Assembly: GCA_947473395.1 (NCBI GenBank)
Contig: CANJEC010000002.1
Coordinates: 1 to 37,326 of the forward strand
Length of the DNA stretch: 37,326 bases
Reading direction: 5' to 3'
From: Actinomycetota bacterium
Lineage (GTDB): Bacteria; Actinomycetota; Acidimicrobiia; Acidimicrobiales; Microtrichaceae
A program made the translations under genes and the position numbers. The notes beneath the pieces were generated by a model. That model was not told the DNA's origin. It did no database searches and saw only the letters and a program-made list of their open reading frames with translations. Of the stretch, positions 4,901 to 28,761 are shown in pieces; position 1 is the stretch's first letter; every line of letters starts with the position of its first letter.

Positions 4901-6526
4901 CTAGCTCGCAGGACTACGGCGAGACTCTGCTTGACGTTCAGCCTGAAGACGCTCGAGTTCAGGCTCTCCCGAGTGATCCACAAAGAGCATCATCTCGGCA
5001 ATGGTCCTGTGCCCCGCCTGCTCGGCGATGAGGCGATGCATTTCTTGGCCCACAGAGCGATAGCTGGGATGGCCCTGAATAGAGGTTCGCAATTCAATCA
5101 GATGCATCGCTTCACGTGCGTTGAACTGCATGGCATAACGGATGCGGTAGGCCAAGGAGACTGCATACCCAGCACGCTCAGGGAATCGTTCGGACAAATC
5201 GGTCCAGAGGTCCTTGGATATACCCATTGCCTCGTCAAACTGAGCGGTGAGTCCAGCGTCGTCGATGGAAACCGGACGCGTGTAACCATGCCGCGGCGTC
5301 AGTTCTTGCCATTCAATGGTCATGAGTCGGTGACGCTGAAGATCTCGGAATGCGCCGTAGTCAGAGACAACATCAAAGCGATAATCAGTTCGCTCTAGTG
5401 CACGGCCAGGCTTATGACGCCTATTGGTTCGCTCTCCAACATATGCCCGAGCAACTGCGAGTCGGTCATCAACTGACATCAGGCGTACCCGGTCAAGAAT
5501 CTGGGCCTCTGGAATACTGGTATGGGGATACAGCATTGCTGCAATGACTTTGACTTCGCCCTCGGGGTCCCAATCGAGCAGGGTCACCGTCGGAGCTGCT
5601 AGTCCAGAGGACTCGTCCCCGGGCAACATCTCGTAGGCAACGGTCTCCATGGCTTCACGGTTGGTGGACATGTACTTCGACGAAGCGCCACCTCGGTCCG
5701 GAAGATCAACCCGCCGCAAAAAGCTGGGTATGACCTTGCGCAACTCAGTCAGCATCAAGTCCGAATATTGCCGAGCCTCTGGCAACGGGTGCGAGCGCAT
5801 CCGCAACAACAAGGCTTCGAAACCCTGACCCGAGCCATAGATACCGACATTTGAGAGCGAGGCAGCGGGAAGGATTCCTCGGGTGGCATCAAAAGCCTTG
5901 GCCCGTATGGCCTGCCGATAAACGAAGTCGGAATCCTGTTCATTCTTTGGGTAGCGCTCCCGGAAATGATCCTGGATCGACCGTGCAAGTTCTCCGTAGG
6001 TATCAAATAAGCGATCCATGTCGCCTACGTACCGCGCCCCCATATTCGACCCTAAAACTTCAGGATCACGGTGATAGCGGAACCGACCACCGAGCCGCTC
6101 GTCATAAGGGATGTATCGAGTCGATTGCTCGAGGTACGACATCAGCCGACCCCACTCCAGAATCTTGGTGAGCAGGTTCGAGGCCTGCTCGCAGGCAAGG
6201 TGTACTCCACCGAGCTGAGCGACGCTGTCGTCGCCATATTCAAAAAAGATTCGGTCGTAGAGCGCCTCGGCGCGATCCAAACCAATCGTCGCATCTACTG
6301 ACTCATCACCAGTCGTATCGAGCTCCCCGACGAACTCGTCGACGAATAACCTCCGCAACGACTTAGCAGATCGGGAATAACGCGCGAACAGCGCACCCTT
6401 CACCACCTCGGGAAGGTTGACTAGCGCGAAGACAGGACCGTCGAGATTTGAGAAGTACCGCCGGAGGACAACTTGCTCCTCTTCTGTGAACTGCTCTGCG
6501 ACGTACGTTGGTACGAGGGAACTCAC
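4901..6526 (-). CDS. ThyX-like (FAD-dependent thymidylate synthase family) tandem-domain protein; ORF extends to 6673, GTG start at 6526 is plausible
   Basis: Two ThyX-like halves. N-half: EQASNLLTKILEWGRLMSYLEQSTRYIPYD. C-half: FRDLQRHRLMTIEWQELTPRHGYTRP and MQFNAREAMHLIELRTSIQGHPSYRSVGQEMHRLI. Confidence 0.75.
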   Translation of the reverse strand: MSSLVPTYVAEQFTEEEQVVLRRYFSNLDGPVFALVNLPEVVKGALFARYSRSAKSLRRLFVDEFVGELDTTGDESVDATIGLDRAEALYDRIFFEYGDDSVAQLGGVHLACEQASNLLTKILEWGRLMSYLEQSTRYIPYDERLGGRFRYHRDPEVLGSNMGARYVGDMDRLFDTYGELARSIQDHFRERYPKNEQDSDFVYRQAIRAKAFDATRGILPAASLSNVGIYGSGQGFEALLLRMRSHPLPEARQYSDLMLTELRKVIPSFLRRVDLPDRGGASSKYMSTNREAMETVAYEMLPGDESSGLAAPTVTLLDWDPEGEVKVIAAMLYPHTSIPEAQILDRVRLMSVDDRLAVARAYVGERTNRRHKPGRALERTDYRFDVVSDYGAFRDLQRHRLMTIEWQELTPRHGYTRPVSIDDAGLTAQFDEAMGISKDLWTDLSERFPERAGYAVSLAYRIRYAMQFNAREAMHLIELRTSIQGHPSYRSVGQEMHRLIAEQAGHRTIAEMMLFVDHSGEPELERLQAERQAESRRSPAS

Positions 6527-15873: not shown

Positions 15874-16827
15874 TCAAGAAGGCAGGTAGCGATTCAGGAT
15901 TCTTTGCGCTGCTGCAGACCGGACCCGGTTCAGTGACTCCCCTGATAGACCATCAGTGGCCACAGTTGACGGGTCCAGGCGCAGCAACAAGCGTTGCAAC
16001 CAAGGAGTAGCAGTAACTGGCAAGACTAGGCGCACGGTGCCGTCCGGATTCTGTTCAAAGAGGTCATACGGGTAGGCATCGGCTACCCAAGAGATCGACT
16101 CTGGGCCAATCAACTCAACAGAGCGCGAGGTTCCAGAAAGCGTGGCCTCAACTCGGCTTATCGAATCTGGCGGCTCGAATGAATCACCAGTCAACTGAGC
16201 TTTTTGGACCCGATCCACTCGAAAGAGGCGCTCGGCATCCATGAGGTGACAATACGCAAGCAGGTACCAGTGACCCTCTCGACTGAGAACGCTGTAGGGA
16301 TCGACCTCTCGGTCCGTGGCTTGGTCACGGCCGTAGCTGAAATAGCTCAGAGCAAGGACCGAATTCGCCTCGGCTGCCTGCTGCAGAACCTGGAGGATCC
16401 CCGAGTCGGCTGGGCCAAGAGCTACCTCGACTGCAGACACTTCGCCCTCACCGAGAACAGCAGAAAGTTTTTGTACTGCGCTCCGCAAGACCCCCTCGGG
16501 ATCCGATCCATCTCGACCCAGAACGGCCCGTCCACCAGCTAGCAAGGTGAGTGCCTCTTCATGAGTCAGACGAACTGGGCGGTGGAAATAGTCCGCCAAG
16601 TTGATGGTGACACAGTCATTATCGAAACTGACTTCGACTAGGACATCTGGGGTGAAGGGATAGAGCCCAACCCCATAGAACACAAGCTCCAAGTCTTTGC
16701 GGAGATCCTCTTGGCTGAGTCCGAATCGTTCAGCGATCTCAGTCAGAGGAGTTCCAGGATTGTGAACAATCCACGGAATGACCGCCAGAATGCGCTGCAC
16801 CCGATCGGGTGCTGTAATGCCACTCAT
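15874..16827 (-). CDS. pafC: WYL-domain transcriptional regulator PafC
   Basis: RVQRILAVIPWIVHNPGTPLTEIAERFGLS N-terminal HTH; WYL-type YSFGRDQATDREVDPYSVLSREGHWYLLAYCH region. ATGA overlap with pafB. Confidence 0.85.
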   Translation of the reverse strand: MSGITAPDRVQRILAVIPWIVHNPGTPLTEIAERFGLSQEDLRKDLELVFYGVGLYPFTPDVLVEVSFDNDCVTINLADYFHRPVRLTHEEALTLLAGGRAVLGRDGSDPEGVLRSAVQKLSAVLGEGEVSAVEVALGPADSGILQVLQQAAEANSVLALSYFSYGRDQATDREVDPYSVLSREGHWYLLAYCHLMDAERLFRVDRVQKAQLTGDSFEPPDSISRVEATLSGTSRSVELIGPESISWVADAYPYDLFEQNPDGTVRLVLPVTATPWLQRLLLRLDPSTVATDGLSGESLNRVRSAAAQRILNRYLPS

Positions 16828-17786
16828 GCTGGCCTCTCAGCCTGCGTGGAGACCATACTGCTCAGCCAAGCTACGAGGTCATGGCGGAACTCTTCAGGCG
16901 ACAAGATCTCGGCCCGGTCAAGAAAGTTCATCATGAAACTCCTCAATCCAGGGGGGTTTCGCACATCAAGTTCCAACACGAGCGAACCGTCAGGTCGGGT
17001 TTCGACGACTCTCAAATCGGGATCTTCTGCGAGCACTGCAGGCGCAATCTCGGAGTCAATCAGTACTCTGGCTAGCGTAATTTCGCCAGCACCAATCTCC
17101 CACTGACGCAGCAACACGCCTTCGATCACATCTGGCAGAGCGTAGGAATCCGCCGCACCAGAATCCACCTGACCTGTCAGCCTGTCGAGTCGGAAGCTTC
17201 GCTGCGCTGCCCGGTCTAAGTCGAAGCCAGTCATGTACCAATGCCCCCGCCGGTACTCCAGACGATATGGCTGTACCTGTCGAGGGGCTTCTTCATACTC
17301 AAAGCTGGCCACCCGTCTCTCTAAGGTGCAAGCGAACAGCGTCAAGAGTTGCGGAGGCATCGGAACTGCACCTACTGGGGTTGCGCTCGCCGCCGCAGTA
17401 GAAGCAAGGCCACCGAGCTTGCGAAGTCCCTCTTCAAGATCATCGGGATCAAGACCCTCAGCTTGGATCATGGTTGCTGCTAAGTGAAGCGCTGCTAGTT
17501 CCTCTAGCTCAAGTCCAAGATCTGGCAACTCATAGCTGTCACGAATGATGGTGTACGCAGCACGGGGCTGTTCGAAGTGGTGAACCTCGACCGTCTCGAT
17601 GGGTATCCCAACCTCTCGTAGCGACTCCTTGTCGCGCTCGAAAGCCCTGTGAAATGCAGCATCAGACTGATCATTCTCAGAGTTTGAATACCCAGGTACT
17701 CGTATACGGATTTGTTCCGCCGTAAGCGGAGTTGTGGTGTCGATCAATGCCGCCACCAGATTTAGGAGTCGCTCTACCCTTGCCAC
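16824..17786 (-). CDS. pafB: WYL-domain transcriptional regulator PafB
   Basis: RVERLLNLVAALIDTTTPLTAEQIRIRVPGY; AFERDKESLREVGIPIE; QPYRLEYRRGHWYMTGFDLDR. Operon position. Confidence 0.85.
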   Translation of the reverse strand: MARVERLLNLVAALIDTTTPLTAEQIRIRVPGYSNSENDQSDAAFHRAFERDKESLREVGIPIETVEVHHFEQPRAAYTIIRDSYELPDLGLELEELAALHLAATMIQAEGLDPDDLEEGLRKLGGLASTAAASATPVGAVPMPPQLLTLFACTLERRVASFEYEEAPRQVQPYRLEYRRGHWYMTGFDLDRAAQRSFRLDRLTGQVDSGAADSYALPDVIEGVLLRQWEIGAGEITLARVLIDSEIAPAVLAEDPDLRVVETRPDGSLVLELDVRNPPGLRSFMMNFLDRAEILSPEEFRHDLVAWLSSMVSTQAERPA

Positions 17787-17795
17787 GTCGTGATC

Positions 17796-18878
17796 CTATT
17801 GTGTAGGTCGAACTGCCGAGCGCTCATCCTTCGGCAACATCTCTGCTGCCACTATCTCTCCTGCCAACATCTCTGCTGCCAAGGCTCCCGCTGCTACTGC
17901 GTTTTCGAAGAAGAGCAGATCCTCACTCACCGACCGGCCCATAGTTGTGGTCTTGAGTCCAGCCGAGTCCATGATCTCCGCTGCATCAATCACAACAGAA
18001 GCATCAGAAATCCGAACCCCCGAAAGTTCCGAAGCAGAAGCAGATGCGCCCGCAACCCAAGGCGAGCACTGCGTCAGGCTCGCGATCGTGACGGTGTGAT
18101 GCGAGAGACCCCGGTGCCGTGGACGCGGGTCGCCGCTTGAGGCACGCACACACAAAATGGGTGTTCCTCCAAGAGCTGTGACCGTGTCGAGAATGGATGC
18201 CACCTCAACAGCAGTGGTCCCAAGCGCCGTTCCAGTTCCGACTACGCCCGGGCCCATGCAGACCACAACGGCATCGGCACCGAGGGTGTGCACTGCTAGG
18301 CCTAGAGCTGAGGGCACACTCACTGCCTCAAGATCTCCTCCAAAGGCGTGGCCAGCTGTCACGGTGCCCGCAATGAGTTGCCGGCTCTTCAGGTCCCAGA
18401 TCAAATCCGAGATAGCTAGGGGAAGCGATGCTCCATCAGTCATCACATAGACCAATGTTTTATCCGGAGCGAGGTGGGCAAAGGCCGCTGCCACAGCTGC
18501 TACTTGACTGTGAACAGAACAAACCACCACCGGAGTAGCCGCTAGAGGTAGGTCACACTCGGGATGGGTCAACTCATCCGTGCCAGCGTCAAACTGCAGG
18601 CTGCTATAGCGAAGCTTCATGATGTGGTCGGGACCAGGCGAGATGAACTCCTCGTGGGACAGGTTCCAATGAACCACATGCCAACCACCGGTTCCTAGCT
18701 GTAACTCCACTGCTGTGGTATTCAAGATGACTTGATCGCCCAAGGCGCACTCACCGGTCAGCGCTGTGAGCGCATATGCCCGAGCTGAAAGGCCATCTGG
18801 CATTCGAACCGCTACCCGTTGAAGCCCTGCGCGTTCTTGCAGAATCTCTGTCACCGTTGCTGAGCGAAAGGTTGGCAC
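17796..18878 (-). CDS. DUF3866 family protein
   Basis: MKLRYSSLQFDAG, GPGVVGTGTALGTTAVEVASILDTVTALGG, SSGDPRPRHRGLSHHTVT, typical of the actinobacterial DUF3866 family as recalled. Confidence 0.75.
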   Translation of the reverse strand: MPTFRSATVTEILQERAGLQRVAVRMPDGLSARAYALTALTGECALGDQVILNTTAVELQLGTGGWHVVHWNLSHEEFISPGPDHIMKLRYSSLQFDAGTDELTHPECDLPLAATPVVVCSVHSQVAAVAAAFAHLAPDKTLVYVMTDGASLPLAISDLIWDLKSRQLIAGTVTAGHAFGGDLEAVSVPSALGLAVHTLGADAVVVCMGPGVVGTGTALGTTAVEVASILDTVTALGGTPILCVRASSGDPRPRHRGLSHHTVTIASLTQCSPWVAGASASASELSGVRISDASVVIDAAEIMDSAGLKTTTMGRSVSEDLLFFENAVAAGALAAEMLAGEIVAAEMLPKDERSAVRPTQ

Positions 18879-21046
18879 TAGCTCACCGAGACATTCTGAA
18901 TTCGCTGAGCCGGTCGGCTGGGCTGCCCCCGAAGCGAACCGGCCGGCGGGTAGTCATCTGGGTGATCTAGTTCAAGGTTCCAGACGGGTAACACCAGCGA
19001 GGAGGGGTGATCAGCAGATCGCCCGACTAGGTGAGTGGCACCCTCGACAATTGGGTTCTCGAAGCACCAGAAGGGGTGATCCCGACCAGGCGTGGACACT
19101 GCCACTCTCAAACAAGAGCCCACACGGAGCAGATGCGCGAGCGGATGAATGGGAATCCGGAATTTCTTCCACTCCCCGACGACAAGGTCTTGCCTATCGC
19201 TTTCGAGAAAGGTGTAATCCACTCGCAGTCCGTCGGAATGATCGGGATCCTCCACCCCATGAATCGGGCGGTGCCAACCACATTGCAAGCGCTGCTCCAT
19301 GCCATCGGGGCGAACCTCGGTCAGTGTCACCTGCACAGCTGTATCGGCACTCCCCGAACGCATCCAGAGCTCAACATGACCTGACCCAGCGATCAACACG
19401 GACTCCGTCAACGGAGCAGTCTGATAGGCCACCCGGTGTGAATCACCAAAGCGTGTCCAGTCAATGATCACCGTCGGTCGAGTGAACTGATCTAAATCAC
19501 TCAGCAGTTCCATCGAATAAGCCAGTTCACCTGCAGCGGGGTCATCGGAGTACGAGTCAGCTCCGCCGCCATGTGGGGCCGACTCAAGCAGTGTTGCCCC
19601 CTCACCAAAGTACCAACGCCGAGGCTTCACCTCTTTCGGGGGGAATGAGTCAGTCTGTACCTCATAGCGATGTGCCGTAGCCCCCGTGACCTCATGACCT
19701 GCGCCACTTTCAAACAGGATTCTGACCCGAGGCTCGGCTAGATACTCTGCGAATGCGGCCTCAAAATCATCTGCGTAATGTCCAAAACGATCGCCCTCTA
19801 ACTCGGCGTCGTAACCAAAAACCTGAGCAAACTGAAGCGGAGCGAAGCTGCGTATCAACTCGGGCACAACAGGAACCCGTCGCGCGACATGAAAGGACAG
19901 AAACTCAAACCACCGCAAAATCACCATCGGGCTGTAGCCATCTGGGTGGTGACCGTTAAACAAGTTGAACCGCTGCGATGGGCTTGAATCAAAGGATTCA
20001 AGCATCAGGGCAAACCTGCTGCCGGTTTGCTCGTCCTGCCATGCGCCCGTGAGATACACCGGCACTTCGATCTGATCCACGAGTGAGGCAGCGCGACGGG
20101 CGCCCATCGTGGGCCGAAAGTTCTCGATGGCACGTCCGAACTGTTCGAAATCAAAATTTTGGGTTCGGATCATCTGATTCTTTTTCGCAACCTCGTCCCC
20201 TGCATCGATGCGCTCTTGATCCCAGGTCATCCCACCTGCGGCACTCTCTTTGTCCCTCGCAATGAGCCACGCTCGAGTGAAACCCGCGTTGTAAATCCCC
20301 CCAGGCCATTGCTGACGCCACAGGTCGTCAATCACCGATAAAGGCGTAATCGCTGCAAGGCTCGGTGGTCGTGTTGCCGCAACATAGAGCTGGCTAATGC
20401 CCGGATAGCTCAGACCAACCATGCCCACATGGTTGTGCAGGACCCAAGGCTGGCGGGCCACCGTCTCAATTGCGTCGTAGCCGTCAGCGGCTTGGGCCGG
20501 GCTAAAGATGTCGAAGACTCCCCCAGAGCAACCCGTCCCACGCATGTTGACGCCAACTACGGCAAAGCCCATGAGATTCGCAATAAGCGTTCCGGGCTGA
20601 GGCGCATCAGGGTTCGAGGGCCCGTAGCCCGAGTACTCAATAACAGTGGGATAGGGACCAGGTCCATACAGGTTCTCATCAGGAAAGCTGACCAAGATAG
20701 AGAGATCCACCCCATCTCGAACACGCAAGTAGCCAAACCCAGGAGACAGAGTCTGTTCATAGAGCGAAGGGTCAGCATGGTCATCAACAGCGAGTACTCG
20801 AACGGCCAGATCGGCAACCGTGTACTCGCCCGGGGCTAGGACTTCGCCATCCGAGAGAGCCTCTGCCAGATCCCGCTGGCTGCGAAGGACAATGGGCTCC
20901 GCTGGCACATACGCCAAATGAGCGTTCCCCGAGCGATCTGCAACAAGCGTCACGAGCAACTCTCGCTGAGAGTCGCGAACCTCGAGATGGGTTCCCACCT
21001 CGGCCCCTGTCACTGTGAGCGTCTCGACTCCTCCGTGCACCTTCAT
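18878..21046 (-). CDS. CocE/NonD (X-Pro dipeptidyl-peptidase S15-like) family hydrolase
   Basis: VGVNMRGTGCSGGVFDIFSPAQAADGYDAIETVARQPWVLHNHVGMVGLSYPGISQL (GxSYxG nucleophile elbow); C-terminal jelly-roll region DRDHPFW.. Confidence 0.88.
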   Translation of the reverse strand: MKVHGGVETLTVTGAEVGTHLEVRDSQRELLVTLVADRSGNAHLAYVPAEPIVLRSQRDLAEALSDGEVLAPGEYTVADLAVRVLAVDDHADPSLYEQTLSPGFGYLRVRDGVDLSILVSFPDENLYGPGPYPTVIEYSGYGPSNPDAPQPGTLIANLMGFAVVGVNMRGTGCSGGVFDIFSPAQAADGYDAIETVARQPWVLHNHVGMVGLSYPGISQLYVAATRPPSLAAITPLSVIDDLWRQQWPGGIYNAGFTRAWLIARDKESAAGGMTWDQERIDAGDEVAKKNQMIRTQNFDFEQFGRAIENFRPTMGARRAASLVDQIEVPVYLTGAWQDEQTGSRFALMLESFDSSPSQRFNLFNGHHPDGYSPMVILRWFEFLSFHVARRVPVVPELIRSFAPLQFAQVFGYDAELEGDRFGHYADDFEAAFAEYLAEPRVRILFESGAGHEVTGATAHRYEVQTDSFPPKEVKPRRWYFGEGATLLESAPHGGGADSYSDDPAAGELAYSMELLSDLDQFTRPTVIIDWTRFGDSHRVAYQTAPLTESVLIAGSGHVELWMRSGSADTAVQVTLTEVRPDGMEQRLQCGWHRPIHGVEDPDHSDGLRVDYTFLESDRQDLVVGEWKKFRIPIHPLAHLLRVGSCLRVAVSTPGRDHPFWCFENPIVEGATHLVGRSADHPSSLVLPVWNLELDHPDDYPPAGSLRGQPSRPAQRIQNVSVS

Positions 21047-21129
21047 GGAATACCCCTCGCTGGCCGATCTGACTGAGAACGCCTCGGCGTCCCCGCTATG
21101 AAGTTAGTCAGAGTACGCCAGTCAACAAC

Positions 21130-22488
21130 TCAGAGAGATTCGATGAGCCGCTCTACTCGTTCGTCTTCAGAAAGGAACGGGTCTTTACATAGGACTGTTC
21201 GCTGAGCCTGATCATTGAGCTTGAGGTGCACCCAATCAACGGTGTAATCACGTTTACGCTCCTTGGCCTTACGAATAAACTCGCCTCGAAGCTTGGCCCG
21301 CGTGGTCTGAGGTGGAGTCTCCATGGCCTCTGCGATTGCCCCATCGCTGACGATTCGTTCCACTCGTCCAGCAGTCTGCAGCTTGTAAAAGACTGAGCGA
21401 GATCGATTGATATCGTGGTACTGCAAATCCAAAAGAGCGACTCGAGGGTCGTCGATTTTCAGAGAATGTCGAGCGGAGTAGGCCTCAATCAGATTGTGCT
21501 TCGTGACCCAGTCGATCTCTGCATCCAAAGACAGCGGCTCGTCTTGTAGCCCAGTCATCACGTGCTCCCACATGCTCAGGGCCTGTTTTTCCTGAGGCGA
21601 CATATCGTGATTATCTGCATATCGAAGCGCTCGTGCCAGATACTCGGACTGGATCTCTACAGCTGTTGCTTCACGACCGTTGGCCAAGCGAACCTTGCGG
21701 GTACAGGTGATGTCGTGGCTGATCTCGCGGATCGCTCTGATTGGATTCTCGAGAGTCATATCGCGCAGAACCACGGTCGGGTCCTCCAACATGCGCAGGA
21801 TGATGGAGCAGGCACCTACTTTCAGGAAAGTTGCATACTCACTCATGTTCGAGTCCCCAACGATCACATGAAGTCGCCGAAACCGATCAGAGTCAGCATG
21901 GGGTTCATCGCGGGTGTTAATGATCGGACGTGAGCGTGTGGTCGCAGATGAGACACCCTCCCAGATGTGCTCCGCTCGCTGGGAGATGGAGAACTGCGCT
22001 CCACGAGCTGTCTGCAGCACCTTGCCTGCACCGGCGTAAATCTGCCGGCTCACGAGGAATGGGATGAGCACTTCGGTGTAGTGGCCAAGGTCGTCATCTC
22101 GGCTCGTGAGATAGTTCTCGTGGCACCCATAGCTATTGCCAGCCGAATCAGTGTTATTGCGAAAGAGGTAGATATCTCCGCGAATTCCTTCTTCGTTGAG
22201 CCGTTCCTGAGCCGACTCCACGAGTTGCTCAAGGATCCACTCCCCTGCCTTGTCATGGGCCACGAGGTCATAGAGCGAGTCACATTCTCCGGTGGCATAC
22301 TCCGGGTGCGAACCGACGTCCAGATACAGACGTGCCCCATTTGCAAGGAAAACATTGGAGGACCTCCCCCAAGAAACCACCCTGCGAAACAAGTAGCGGG
22401 CAACCTCGTCTGGGCTCAGCCTGCGTTGGCCTCGCAGAGTGCAAGTAACTCCGTACTCATTCTCGAGTCCGTAGATGCGCCGGTCCAT
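21130..22488 (-). CDS. pafA: Pup–protein ligase PafA
   Basis: [68 protein letters not shown]. Confidence 0.97.
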
Positions 22489-22517
22489 ATGGTCAACCTA
22501 CAGGCCGTGATAACCGA

Positions 22518-23219
22518 TTAGGTGTCGATATTCGTATCGTTACTGCCAAGCACCGCAGTGACGTCTTCGTCTTCAACCCTACGGAACGCTCGCCTTGGTC
22601 CTGCCCTATCGAGCACAGCGACTTCAATCTCGCTCACCACTAGGCTGCGGTCAGGTCCAGCGAGTGCATCCACTGCTGCTTGGAGCGCCTCTGCGAATGT
22701 TCCTCCCTCTACCCACTGCTCTTGCATTCTGGATCCGATCGCCTCGGCTTCACCACCGAGTACGCACCAGCCGGTCTCGTCAATCAATGTCCCGTCATAG
22801 AGAATGTGAAAGAGCTGATCGCCCACAGAATCGTGGCCGATCTCGGCCACGAGAATCTCGACCTCCATCGGCTTCATCTCATGGGTAAAGACCTGACCGA
22901 GCATCTGTGCATATTGGTTAGCCAAGCTGCGAGCGTCCACGTCTTCACGACTAAACGAGAACCCTTTTAGGTCTGCGTGACGCACCCCAGCGATGCGCAA
23001 TTGGTCAAACTCGTTGTACTTCCCAACTCCAGCAAAGGCGATGCGATCGTAAATCTCAGAAATCTTGCGCAACATCCGCGAGGGATTCTCAGCGCACAAA
23101 AGAATGCCCTGGTCATAGGTGCAGGCAACCATTGCGCGTCCGCGTGCGATTCCCTTGCGCGCATAGTCCGCCCGGTCTTGCATCATCTGTTCTGGGGCTA
23201 CATAGAACGGAGCAGTCAT
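22518..23219 (-). CDS. prcA: 20S proteasome alpha subunit
   Basis: [51 protein letters not shown] overlap with prcB. Confidence 0.96.
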
Positions 23220-24019
23220 CTCGATCCTCCACGCTCAGTAGCTACCTGACCCAGAATGCTCAGATAGCGGGCCTCTAGATCTTCGTCATCGAGTCGCTCA
23301 AAGCCACTGGAAGTAATCGTGGCCACCACAGGAAAGATTCCCCTCAGCAGGTCCGGTCCCCCAGTAGCTGAGTCCTCATCTGAGGCTTCGTAGAGCGCCC
23401 GCAGGACCAAGTCAATGGTCTCGTCAGCGCTCAGCGTGCCTCGCCAACCCATCTTGATAACGGTGCTCGCATGCATCTGTCCGGATCCGGTTGAAGCATG
23501 ATCAAATTCCTCGTAGCGGCCGCCCGTTACGTCGTATTGAAAGAGTCTCCCTGCGGCTCGAGCAGTGTCAAAACCAGCAAAGATCGGAACAACGGCTAGG
23601 CCTTGCATGGCAGCAGGAAGGTGATTTCGTACCATCTGCGAGAGCTGATTCGCCTTGCCTTCCAAGCTCAGTGGAGCACCCTCGACTTTTTCGTAGTGCT
23701 CGAGTTGAAGCTGGAACAGGCGAACCATCTCGATTGCCGGCCCCGCAGCACCTGCGATCGCAACCCCTGAATGACGATCTGCAGGGAAGACCTTCTCGAT
23801 AGTTCGGTGACTAATGAAATTGCCTGATGTTGCTCGGCGATCTCCTGCCATCACAACCCCACCCGAGTAACGAACGGCAACACATGTTGTTCCGTGCGTA
23901 ATCGTCAGCCTGGCATCAACCGGGCTATCTGGGACTGCTGGCGATAGCCCCATTCGCCGCACGAGTGCTGCAAAATCAGGCCCTGGATCCTCGCTAAGAC
24001 GGAAGCTGGGAAGAGTCAC
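23216..24019 (-). CDS. prcB: 20S proteasome beta subunit with propeptide
   Basis: ...[40 protein letters not shown]. Confidence 0.97.
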
Positions 24020-24053
24020 GCAGGGAAGGCTACAAGCTAGGAGTCTAGAAGGA

Positions 24054-24254
24054 TTACTGACCGCCCTTTTGAATGTAAGACTTCACGAACTCTTCGGCGT
24101 TGGTCTCAAGGACATCGTCAATTTCATCAAGCAAATCATCAAGCTCAGCCTTGATCTTGGTCCCCGACTCCGTGACTGCCGGGCTGTGATCCGGCTCGCT
24201 CTCACGCTGCTGTGGTTCTGGCTTTTTCTTGAGTTCTCGTTCTGGCATGTTCAA
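24054..24254 (-). CDS. pup: Prokaryotic ubiquitin-like protein Pup (GGQ form)
   Basis: 66 aa ending ...[23 protein letters not shown], next to prcB and dop. Confidence 0.98.
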
Positions 24255-24354
24255 CCTCCGCTTGCTCTAACCGTACCCTGCGCTGAAGCAAAATCGGCGA
24301 CGCACTTGTCAGCAATCTCAGCACTGACGGACTCTGCACAGGGTTTGACCCCTC

Positions 24355-25842
24355 TTATTTTAATCGTTGTAACAACTCGGCGGCATCTGCAGAGGAATCG
24401 ATCAGGGCACCTACTGCTTCTTGAGTACCCCTGCCAGGCTCAAGCATGGGGACTCGCTGCAAGGAGGCTTCCCCGGTGTCAAAAACTAGGGAATCCCAGT
24501 TCGCCGCTACTACCTGGTCCGGAAAACGAGCCAAACAGCGCCCACGAAAATAGGCTCGTGTCTGAGGTGGAGGCTCGGTAGTTGCTAGGGCAACCTGAGC
24601 ATCCGTAGTCAGGCGTTCAAGGCCCATACGCCGAGAGAGCGAAGTAGCGGCACGAAGGTCGTGATACTGCAGGTCCATGGCAGCCAAGCGCGGACTTGAC
24701 CAATCCAGACTGTGTCGCTCCATAGATGCCTGAAACAACCGGTACTTGGCAACCCAATCAACCTGGGAGGCCAAACTCAAGGGATCTTGTTCAAGGCCAT
24801 TCAGAACCTGTTCCCAGCGCTGCAGAATCTGCTCGCCGACATCCTCGCCCACTGATGAAAGACCTCTGCTGCTGGCCCAATTCTGAGCATGTTCCAGGAT
24901 CAGCCACTGCATGTCTAATGCCGTCATGCTGCTCCCGTCCGCTAGGAGGAGCGGCTCGCTCAGCGAGAGATCCTGTGAAACTTGGTGCATGGCTGGAACT
25001 GGCTGAGCAAGCTGCGGCAGGTCATCGAGCACCTCATCCTCGATCATGGCCAACAAGATTGCGGTGCTACCCAACTTGAGGAAGGTTGCAACCTCTGCCA
25101 TGTTGGCATCGCCAGCGATGACGTGAAGCCTGCGGTACTTCGTGGGGTCTGCGTGGGGCTCATCTCGAGTATTGATGATCGGACGCTTCAGCGTGGTCTC
25201 CAGACCAACTTCCTCTTCAAAAAAGTCGGCCCGTTGGGTGAGCTGAAATGGTACGGAATCCCGACGAACCCCAGGCATCTCTGTGCCGACCTTGCCAGCG
25301 CCGGTGAAAATCTGCCGGGTTACAAAATGTGTGGTTGCGTGCAACACAATTGAAGGAAACGGAGTGGCTCGATCCATGAGGTAGTTCTCGTGGCACCCGT
25401 AGCTGTTTCCCTTACCGTCGGAATTGTTCTTGTAGACAACAATCTCCTGCCCATCAGGCATCTGTCGCTGTGCGGCGGCCATGGATTGCAACAGAATCTC
25501 TTCGCCGGCACGGTCATAGAGAAGGGCCTGTGCAGCATCGATACATTCGGGTGCAGAGAACTCCGGGTGCGCATGATCAACGTAGTAGCGCGCACCGTTG
25601 GTCAGGACTGCGTTCACGAGATGAGTCTCAATCTCGGGTGCAACGGCGAGGAGTCGCTGATCTTGGCGGGCATCATTGCCAGGCATCTCATCCTCGAAGT
25701 CCCACCCAATTCGAGCCCCCTCAAGCAACGAGAGATAGGAGTTAATCAACATCGAGGAAGATGAGATGGGGTTTGATTCAGCAACGCCGCGGATCAGAAT
25801 GCCGTATTCCGTCTCTATTCCGCAGATCTTTGGTATGGCCAC
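24355..25842 (-). CDS. dop: Depupylase/deamidase Dop
   Basis: [49 protein letters not shown]. Confidence 0.96.
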   Translation of the reverse strand: MAIPKICGIETEYGILIRGVAESNPISSSSMLINSYLSLLEGARIGWDFEDEMPGNDARQDQRLLAVAPEIETHLVNAVLTNGARYYVDHAHPEFSAPECIDAAQALLYDRAGEEILLQSMAAAQRQMPDGQEIVVYKNNSDGKGNSYGCHENYLMDRATPFPSIVLHATTHFVTRQIFTGAGKVGTEMPGVRRDSVPFQLTQRADFFEEEVGLETTLKRPIINTRDEPHADPTKYRRLHVIAGDANMAEVATFLKLGSTAILLAMIEDEVLDDLPQLAQPVPAMHQVSQDLSLSEPLLLADGSSMTALDMQWLILEHAQNWASSRGLSSVGEDVGEQILQRWEQVLNGLEQDPLSLASQVDWVAKYRLFQASMERHSLDWSSPRLAAMDLQYHDLRAATSLSRRMGLERLTTDAQVALATTEPPPQTRAYFRGRCLARFPDQVVAANWDSLVFDTGEASLQRVPMLEPGRGTQEAVGALIDSSADAAELLQRLK

Positions 25843-25871
25843 GCCCTGACGCTAGCGGCAGGAACGGATCG

Positions 25872-26906
25872 CTACTTGACGATCGGACCAAGGCCGACAA
25901 CCGGCGAGAGTGTCAGCGGCATAATCGAAGCTGACCGTCCACCATTTTGGGTTTCACGCCCCTCCGCGAACGTCGAGAATATTGCTCTCGCTCCGCCAAA
26001 TGTATCCGTGAAGAAACTCAGCCCGCCGGGTCCCGTTCGACCTGCAGATGATGCAATCCAAGGCCCCGAAGGGTCCGAGGTGCAAGGCCCAACTGGTGCC
26101 GAACACCTTGCGATCCCCGTGGAGTAGTCCCGCTGCCACCAGACCCCTGCCGAGTAGGTCAGAAGATAATTTCCGCGGGTGGAGTCATAGACCATTGAGG
26201 GATTCTCTATGAAGTGGTACTCCCAGCCGTATTGGCGAGCCAAAATCTGCACGGGCGGCCCGACAGCGTTCGCGTTGGCATCAAGGGGGATTGAATGCAA
26301 GGGTGCCTCTGTGTCGCTAAAAGCGACAAGCAGGTAGCGGTTGCCTTGAATGTCACTCGTCACTTCCGGGTCCAGCGCACCACCAACCTGCCCTATTCCG
26401 CAGTTAAAGGGCTGCGGCTCGGGCACAAACGGACCCTCGGGTCTCTCGGCGAAGGCGCGACCAACACACTGAGCATTATGCGGCTGGGGTGGATTTATAC
26501 GATCAGCTCCGAAAAACATGACCCAGCGAGTACCAAACTGGGCCACGGTTGGCGCCCAGAGTTGCTCAGGCCTCGCAGCCCATGCCGGCGCGGTGGGCAT
26601 GGCCTCAGCAGTCAAGCTGTCCTTCTCACCGCCGGTGTATTGCCGATCGATGTCAGTGGTCTTCGTAACAGGTGCCCGCAAGTGATTATTTGACCCATAG
26701 ATATAAAACTGTGAGTCCACCCGAACAACCGAGGGGTCAGAAGTTTCAGGTAACGAAGGCTGCGATATGGTCCGAAGCTTGAACAAAGCTCCAAGTTCCG
26801 GAGCGCACCCTGTAGCCACGACGAGCAAACACGAGAACATCAGAATTGCTGGAGCAACACGCAACATGTGTCGCCGAACGCGAAATTTAGAGCTGACTAT
26901 CAACAA
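25872..26906 (-). CDS. GH43-like five-bladed beta-propeller putative lipoprotein (TTG start)
   Basis: Signal/lipobox-like FSCLLVVATGC; DPSVVRVDSQFYIYGSNN, ALDPEVTSDIQGNRYLLV, FIENPSMVYDSTRGNYLLTYSAG. AGGAGGAGGG Shine-Dalgarno upstream of TTG at 26906. Confidence 0.75.
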   Translation of the reverse strand: MLIVSSKFRVRRHMLRVAPAILMFSCLLVVATGCAPELGALFKLRTISQPSLPETSDPSVVRVDSQFYIYGSNNHLRAPVTKTTDIDRQYTGGEKDSLTAEAMPTAPAWAARPEQLWAPTVAQFGTRWVMFFGADRINPPQPHNAQCVGRAFAERPEGPFVPEPQPFNCGIGQVGGALDPEVTSDIQGNRYLLVAFSDTEAPLHSIPLDANANAVGPPVQILARQYGWEYHFIENPSMVYDSTRGNYLLTYSAGVWWQRDYSTGIARCSAPVGPCTSDPSGPWIASSAGRTGPGGLSFFTDTFGGARAIFSTFAEGRETQNGGRSASIMPLTLSPVVGLGPIVK

Positions 26907-26997
26907 GGACCCTCCTCCTCACACCCTTATAAGTTTATCAAACACTCAAGGCCCGATACAAGTTCCTCGCAGTACCCCAACTTCCAAAACCCGCAAG

Positions 26998-28761
26998 CTA
27001 GAGGTACTGACCCGTAGCCACCCGATCGATAGACCTACCGCCAGCCGGGTCTGCATCAATGTGATGGACGAGTGTTCGCACATAGACAATCCGCTCACCC
27101 TTCTTGCCAGAGATCTTGGCCCAATCATCTGGGTTCGTGGTGTTTGGCAGATCCTCGTGCTCCTTGTACTCCTGATGGATCGAGGCAATCAGGTCCGCTA
27201 CGCGGATGCCTGTGGTCCCCCCAGCCAGTTGACGCTTAATGGCTAGCTTCTTGCCCCGTCGCACAACGTTTTCGATCATGGCTCCAGAAGAAAAGTCCTT
27301 GAAATACATGATTTCCTTATCGCCATTTTGATACGTCACCTCGAGGAACTGATTCGATTCATCAGTGCGGTACATCTCTTCCACTGTTTGCTCAATCATC
27401 ACCAGAATCGCCTTTTGGGGATCCCCACCCCCTAAGCGCTGAACCTCATCTTGATCGAATGGCAACTCCGGGGTCAGGTACCGGCCAAAGATCTGTGCCG
27501 CAGCGCGTTCATCTGGTCGATGGATCTTGATCTTGACGTCCAATCGACCTGGCCGAAGGATTGCAGGATCAATCAGGTCTTCACGGTTAGATGCGCCGAT
27601 CACGATCACGTTCTTCAGGGTTTCGACACCGTCGATCTCTGCGAGAAGTTGAGGAACGATCGTTGCCTCCATATCGGAAGAAATCCCAGTTCCACGAGTA
27701 CGAAACAGCGACTCCATCTCGTCAAAGAAGACAATCACTGGAGTTCCGTCGGCTGCCTTTTCGCGCGCTCGCTGGAACACAAGTCGGATATGTCGCTCCG
27801 TCTCGCCCACGTACTTGTTGAGCAACTCAGGGCCCTTGATATTCAGGAAGAAGCTTCGAGCCTCTCTGCCGGTTGACTCGGTCACTTTCTTTGCCAAGCT
27901 ATTTGCTACAGCCTTGGCAATCAGCGTCTTTCCGCATCCAGGGGGGCCGTACAACAAGATGCCCTTCGGTGCTGGTAACTGATACTCGCGAAACAGATCT
28001 TGGTGAAGAAACGGCAGTTCTACTGCATCAGTGATCATCTCGATCTGCTCATCAAGCCCGCCGATGTCCTCGTACGTGATGTCGGGAACTTCTTCAAGAA
28101 TCAGCTCGTCCACCTCGGGCCGAGGTAAGCGCTCAAGGAGCATCCCGGACCGCGAATCCATCAGGACGTTGTCACCCGCTCGCATCTTGACGGTCAGCAA
28201 CTTGTCGCCAAGCTCTGCAACTCGCTCCTCATCGGCTCTGCCCACAACGAGAGCCCGTCGGCCGTCCTCGAACAGTTCCTTGAACGTAACAATCTCGCCC
28301 GAGGATTCCGAGTCTCGAATCATGACCACGTTGTATGCCTCGTTCAGCACAACCTCGGCGCCTGCAAAGAGTTCCTCTGGATGAATGGCAGGAGAAACTT
28401 CGACGCGCATCTTTCGCCCAGCAGCCTGCACATCAACAGTGCCGTCATCGTTTACTCCCAGCAACGTTGCATAAGCAGCAGGAGGTTGGGTGAGCTTGTC
28501 GACCTCATCGCGCAGGGAGGAGATGTGGTCTCTGGCTTCTCGAAGCGTGTAGGAGAGCTTCTCGTTCTGGCTCACAGCTTGAGAAAGTTGCCCCTTAGTT
28601 TCGAGCAGTCGCTCCTCAAGAGTGCGGACTCGTTTCGGTGCATCCTGAAGTCGGCGGAGCAGAACTGATACCTCTTCGTTCAGCTCGCGAACCTGCTCGC
28701 GCAGCAGGTCGCTCTCGCTCTCTCCAAAGCCAGAATCATCTGTGGTTTCCTGATCGTCCAT
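26998..28761 (-). CDS. arc: Proteasomal AAA ATPase ARC/Mpa
   Basis: Coiled coil, OB domain, [33 protein letters not shown]-terminus ...RVATGQYL (proteasome-docking GQYL). Confidence 0.97.

Follow-up and report, generated by a model that had tools for sequence, protein, structure and literature searches.

The window, i.e., the whole analysed stretch of 37,326 nucleotides, carries on its minus strand (4901..6526) a gene with a GTG start for a tandem ThyX protein of 541 amino acids, whose two fused halves contain strictly complementary sets of the active-site residues of ThyX. Based on this complementarity, the presence of two Thy1 domains and the replacement of other thymidylate synthases in the respective genomes, the protein is very probably a working flavin-dependent thymidylate synthase, which would have arisen by duplication and fusion of ThyX and subsequent reciprocal loss of half-sites. 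With somewhat lower confidence, we regard it as a likely representative of an ancient and widespread branch of ThyX, consisting of obligate two-domain enzymes in which four domains form two composite and two dead sites and Asp instead of His53 alters the folate pocket. This branch would supply most Acidimicrobiia and many other Actinomycetota with their main thymidylate synthase and would also be borne by phages.

Two Thy1 domains in one reading frame

The gene consists of a single open frame, and the stop-to-stop frames of the close relatives L004, L005 and L006 amount to exactly 541 amino acids. L006, from a record named Actinobacteria bacterium IMCC26207, is 99% identical. A pseudogene reading was ruled out by the open frame and the invariant residue partition described below. 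Contigs L004 and L043, which are titled Bifidobacterium breve, contain 99% identical copies of the gene; the other relatives are Acidimicrobiia-type MAGs, and the record names of these two contigs are probably wrong.

The Thy1 profile of Pfam (PF02511) matched the protein in two stretches (whole protein 2e-29, 103.2 bits vs. a cut-off of 24.8), both of which scored above the family cut-off in a profile search of the window's genome. These two matches bear out the proposal of a first-pass annotation that a duplicated ThyX-like protein is encoded at this place. The best match (residues 320-503) lies in the C-terminal half (C-half, approximately residues 286-541; 4904..5671, minus strand), and the second one in the N-terminal half (N-half, approximately residues 1-275; 5702..6526, minus strand). 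The Pfam score and the Thy1 fold place the protein in the ThyX/Thy1 superfamily, and its score of 41.3 bits with the NCBIfam equivalog for thyX (TIGR02170) falls below the cut-off of 87.9 set for canonical ThyX. Comparison with canonical ThyX by hhalign yielded a probability of 95% for the C-half (E 3.6e-8) and a weak match for the N-half (probability 1.2%). The assignment of the N-half to Thy1 is based on Pfam, the HMM alignment, motif identity and the tree. Searching the PDB sequences with the full protein returned chance matches only (EF-Tu and similar), and it is the Pfam matches, the profile comparison and the fold that relate the protein to ThyX.

An AlphaFold model of the tandem protein reached a mean pLDDT of 86.4 and a pTM of 0.86. 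Its best matches among solved structures, as obtained by Foldseek, were ThyX chains of about half the query length (TMt up to 0.73, probability 1.00). The viral models that matched best were long proteins aligned over 515-533 columns, the first being the thymidylate synthase of Microcystis phage Ma-LMM01 (TMq 0.54-0.58). A tree was built from 14 N-halves, 14 C-halves and 8 canonical ThyX and contained some long branches; the N-halves formed one group in it (support 100/100) and the C-halves another (95/95). Because the two kinds of halves form separate clades, a single old duplication-fusion is likely, which would have taken place before the tandem proteins reached phages and other phyla.

Division of the active-site residues between the halves

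In canonical ThyX, the signature RHRxxSxNExSxRY is contained in one chain segment, whereas it was divided between the two halves in 139/139 tandem proteins. This set goes back to 69 loci from a genome scan, enlarged by later searches, and comprises the first sets of 83 proteins together with class and phylum outliers and relatives from phages and plasmids (tblastn, 22-48% identity). The N-half contains the motif WGRLMSYLEQSTRY, i.e., W-G-R-LMSYL-E-Q-S-T-R-Y (residues 125-138; 6113..6154, minus strand), and the C-half contains RHRLMTIEWQELTPRHGY (residues 398-415; 5282..5335, minus strand), both at the positions given in the first-pass annotation. As claimed there, the N-half retains the S..EQSxRY part: E133, S135, R137 and Y138, which are equivalent to E86, S88, R90 and Y91 of the Thermotoga maritima enzyme (Tm), were present in all 139 proteins. 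The C-half, again as proposed, retains RHR (residues 398-400, equivalent to Tm R78, H79 and R80; 5327..5335, minus strand) in 139/139 and lacks the serine and SxRY part, with no ExSxRY-like segment in any aligned homologue. The claimed loss of RHR from the N-half was correct for the first two positions and incorrect for the third, where 131/139 proteins retain the Arg (R127). Position 125 of the N-half is W in 90/139 and R in 40/139 proteins, and a search for covariation of this position (W/R) gave nothing strong. The counterpart of the RHR His in the N-half is Gly in 129/139.

The split is real and reaches further than the signature in which it had been noticed. R216 in the segment TRGILP (5879..5881, minus strand), the equivalent of Tm Arg147, is restricted to the N-half and has Tyr454 as its C-half counterpart in 136/139, while R480 (5087..5089, minus strand), equivalent to Tm Arg174, is clearly restricted to the C-half; each of these two arginines is kept in 138/139 proteins. 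The equivalents of RHR, Ser88, Arg90, Tyr91 and Arg174 are all present in the tandem protein, at residues 398-400, 135, 137, 138 and 480. E133, S135, R137, Y138, R398, H399 and R400 never varied among the 83 first-set proteins and are, together with S101, invariant in 139/139. A loss of both motifs among close homologues, named as a refuting result in the first-pass annotation, was looked for in the 139 tandem proteins and did not occur. The same split was observed at 22-26% identity in proteins of Microcystis, Vibrio and Tunturiibacter phages and of Bacillus/Paenibacillus plasmids. Because it is held in 139/139 homologues down to this level, the partition is not a matter of chance and, as judged from the aligned sequences, is strict and old. 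A tandem ThyX with the same motif split, 53% identical to that of the window, was found on an IMG/VR viral contig (L146:4001-5590, plus strand).

Changes were also observed around the folate and dUMP sites. The N-half segment G98-D-D-S101 (6224..6235, minus strand) is the counterpart of GH53xT55, and the position of the folate-stacking His53 is occupied by Asp99 in 131/139 and by His in 8 deep homologues (phage, Bacillus/Paenibacillus); the C-half has Pro373 there, in a loop whose alignment is unsure. The Gln75 position is occupied by Asp395, and with Asp at both places, kinetics or substrate details may differ from those of canonical ThyX. Structures of H53D mutants of T. maritima ThyX have been solved (4kas, 4kar). 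N469-A-R471 (5114..5122, minus strand) contains the equivalents of Tm N163 and R165 (N in 129/139, R in 130/139); in the Bacillus/Paenibacillus and phage tandems, the C-halves retain neither. Arg165 is represented by R471 in most C-halves from actinobacteria, but by the Arg of the N-half segment NGR in the Bacillus/Paenibacillus group.

Replacement of other thymidylate synthases in genomes

We searched a class sample of 120 genomes, consisting of 119 with at least 85% completeness and the window's own genome, which is 63% complete. The tandem protein was the only thymidylate synthase detected in 94 of them, canonical ThyX in 14 and ThyA in 7, while 2 genomes contained the tandem protein and ThyA and 3 (85-87% complete) none of them. 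In total, 96 of the 120 genomes contained the tandem protein, 9 a strong ThyA and 14 canonical ThyX, the latter being a 220-aa protein whose carriers all belong to one genus (g28). A Fisher test of association gave p = 3.4e-18, uncorrected for phylogeny. Even within a single family, f18, some genera contain the tandem protein (G066, G074, G077, G089, G116) and others ThyA (G013, G034, G042, G083). In a phylum sample of 297 genomes, we detected 89 tandem carriers, including the window's own genome, none of which contained canonical ThyX and one of which contained a strong ThyA (G009). The check for thyA or canonical thyX elsewhere in the window's genome, as suggested in the first-pass annotation, turned up neither ThyA nor another ThyX in the 63% that is covered, an absence which by itself means little. 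Since the tandem protein replaces ThyA and canonical ThyX in genomes, as expected of a functional thymidylate synthase, it most likely serves these bacteria as their thymidylate synthase, and this replacement does not support the alternative suggestion of a new function.

Five Actinomycetota genomes (G128, G156, G168, G188, G267), in which neither the tandem protein nor canonical ThyX nor a strong ThyA was detected, encode a Thy1 relative of 270-300 aa whose segments look circularly permuted. THRxFSRNSxSSRAIP is located close to its beginning, and its final part is the canonical N-terminal piece, ARVSYLTHDG...PPHWSPLEHVATP (from L147:1357, L148:1321, L149:1126, L150:913 and L151:1348 on, plus strand). 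A plasmid record of Parabacteroides distasonis (Bacteroidota; L158:583-2202, plus strand) contains a tandem ThyX 45% identical to that of the window, which suggests a transfer or a mixed assembly.

Probable composite active sites and related systems

In ThyX of Mycobacterium tuberculosis (Mtb), the FAD of subunit A is bound by RHR of the same subunit, whereas dUMP is liganded by Arg95 and Arg199 of subunit A and by Arg87, Ser105 and Arg107 of subunit C, with Tyr108 of subunit C as a lid (PMC6514825). Mtb Arg199 corresponds to Tm Arg174, and Mtb Ser105, Arg107 and Tyr108 to Tm Ser88, Arg90 and Tyr91 (PMC6514825). In the T. maritima enzyme, Arg174 serves in dUMP activation, and Ser88, Arg90 and Tyr91 act in methylene transfer (PMC8316439). 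An inhibitor in the dUMP pocket of PBCV-1 ThyX likewise contacts residues from two monomers, namely Gln75 and Arg182 from A, and Ser88 and Gln89 from B (PMC3498832). The C-half of the tandem protein matches the subunit-A set (RHR and the Arg174 equivalent), and the N-half matches the set of the other subunit (Ser88, Arg90 and Tyr91) plus the Arg147 equivalent. Such a partition is to be expected when, after duplication of the gene, one half-site of every redundant pair is lost. The composite site considered in the first-pass annotation is well supported by this match and by the invariant partition in very distant relatives, and shared active sites are probably built by both halves, with a contact between RHR and ExSxRY being predicted from the published subunit roles (PMC3498832, PMC6514825).

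Two chains would form a pseudo-tetramer of four Thy1 domains. At each working site, the C-half, as the putative FAD-side half (with RHR and the Arg174 equivalent and without ExSxRY), would bind FAD through residues 398-400 and activate dUMP with Arg480. The N-half, as the putative dUMP-side half (with ExSxRY, the Arg147 equivalent and the H-x-S region and without RHR), would contribute the dUMP loop (E133, S135, R137), the Tyr138 lid and Arg216. Ser101, the residue at the His53 position and the Arg or Gln at the Arg165 position may come from a third domain, of the one half or the other; the third-subunit part concerned is that of the His53 position and of Ser71 and Arg190 in Mtb. The chemistry would be that of ordinary ThyX, with FAD reduced by NADPH and dUMP converted to dTMP with the carbon of methylene-THF. 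The opposite pairing of the N-half W-G-R with the C-half loop would create a dead site, so that by tetramer symmetry two rather than four sites should remain per four domains.

The data may be read in other ways. It is very unlikely that the enzyme consists of one half alone and that the other serves as a structural or regulatory pseudo-domain, with like halves (C-C or N-N) catalysing by means of substitute residues. The invariant sets of the halves do differ, and invariant residues peculiar to the C-half (N368, R369, R370, R375, W406, Q407) could replace the lost loop, but W406 and Q407 are not retained in deep homologues, and each half strictly keeps what the other lacks in 139/139 proteins. 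Moreover, a pseudo-domain would not keep the equivalents of Ser88, Arg90 and Tyr91, which are catalytic in ThyX (PMC8316439). The genome distribution speaks against a tandem protein which is no longer a thymidylate synthase and, like PolB acting on UMP, transfers a methyl or hydroxymethyl group to another nucleotide: 94 of the 96 carriers in the class contain no other detected thymidylate synthase, and loss of the tandem protein goes along with the appearance of ThyA or canonical ThyX, even inside family f18. We consider such a change of substrate very unlikely, although two published folate/dUMP-site residues are altered (His53 to Asp, Gln75 to Asp), the fold matches include PolB structures and the score stays below the thyX equivalog cut-off. 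Finally, the retained R127, the third Arg of RHR, and the R at position 125 in 40/139 proteins might point to a canonical-style ThyX with four active sites, in which shifted neighbours supply the missing residues in each half. This is extremely unlikely, given the Gly in place of the RHR His in 129/139 N-halves and C-halves without an ExSxRY-like segment in all aligned homologues.

A composite-site tandem enzyme would share with the canonical homotetrameric ThyX or FDTS (T. maritima TM0449, M. tuberculosis, H. pylori, PBCV-1) the Thy1 fold, which each half has, the set of catalytic residues and, in its predicted geometry, active sites between subunits. It differs from them in that the signature, which they carry in one chain, is divided between two fused and diverged copies, and in the exchange of His53 for Asp. 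The same tandem layout and split occur in long database proteins of Euzebya, Miltoncostaea, Bacillus/Paenibacillus plasmids, Microcystis phage Ma-LMM01 and Vibrio phage BONAISHI, which are 22-48% identical to that of the window and, in several phage cases, have His at the His53 position. Public records name such long proteins 'FAD-dependent thymidylate synthase' or 'thymidylate synthase', and a search of the open literature, with subscription papers including chlamydial ThyX work outside its range, retrieved no description of a tandem ThyX with a split site. The monomeric dUTPase of herpesviruses represents an oligomeric enzyme which was duplicated and whose active-site motifs were then split between the halves; it has followed the same route in an unrelated fold, with one dUTPase chain forming one site. 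Chlamydial ThyX is an unusually long ThyX with reported activity; should it be a tandem protein, the group would include a member already studied by experiment. Chlamydiaceae do not contain thyA (PMC3932018).

ThyX is an essential enzyme and a drug target, and the tandem proteins represent a natural separation-of-function set, in which the halves should reveal the residues needed on the FAD side and on the dUMP side. Because the halves are separated, the subunit roles derived from crystal structures become open to genetic testing. The tandem proteins would also illustrate that a symmetric four-site enzyme can lose half of its sites and yet be maintained in much of a phylum as well as in phages.

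The genes flanking the 69 tandem loci were kept in about half of the cases at most (GNAT in 35/69, M20 in 19/69), and with a neighbourhood so weakly conserved, the context tells nothing on function. Further along the window, a Pup-proteasome region (15874-28761) contains two genes for proteins of the Pup-ligase family (21130-22488 and 24355-25842), along with those for a PafC-type WYL regulator and a proteasomal AAA ATPase.
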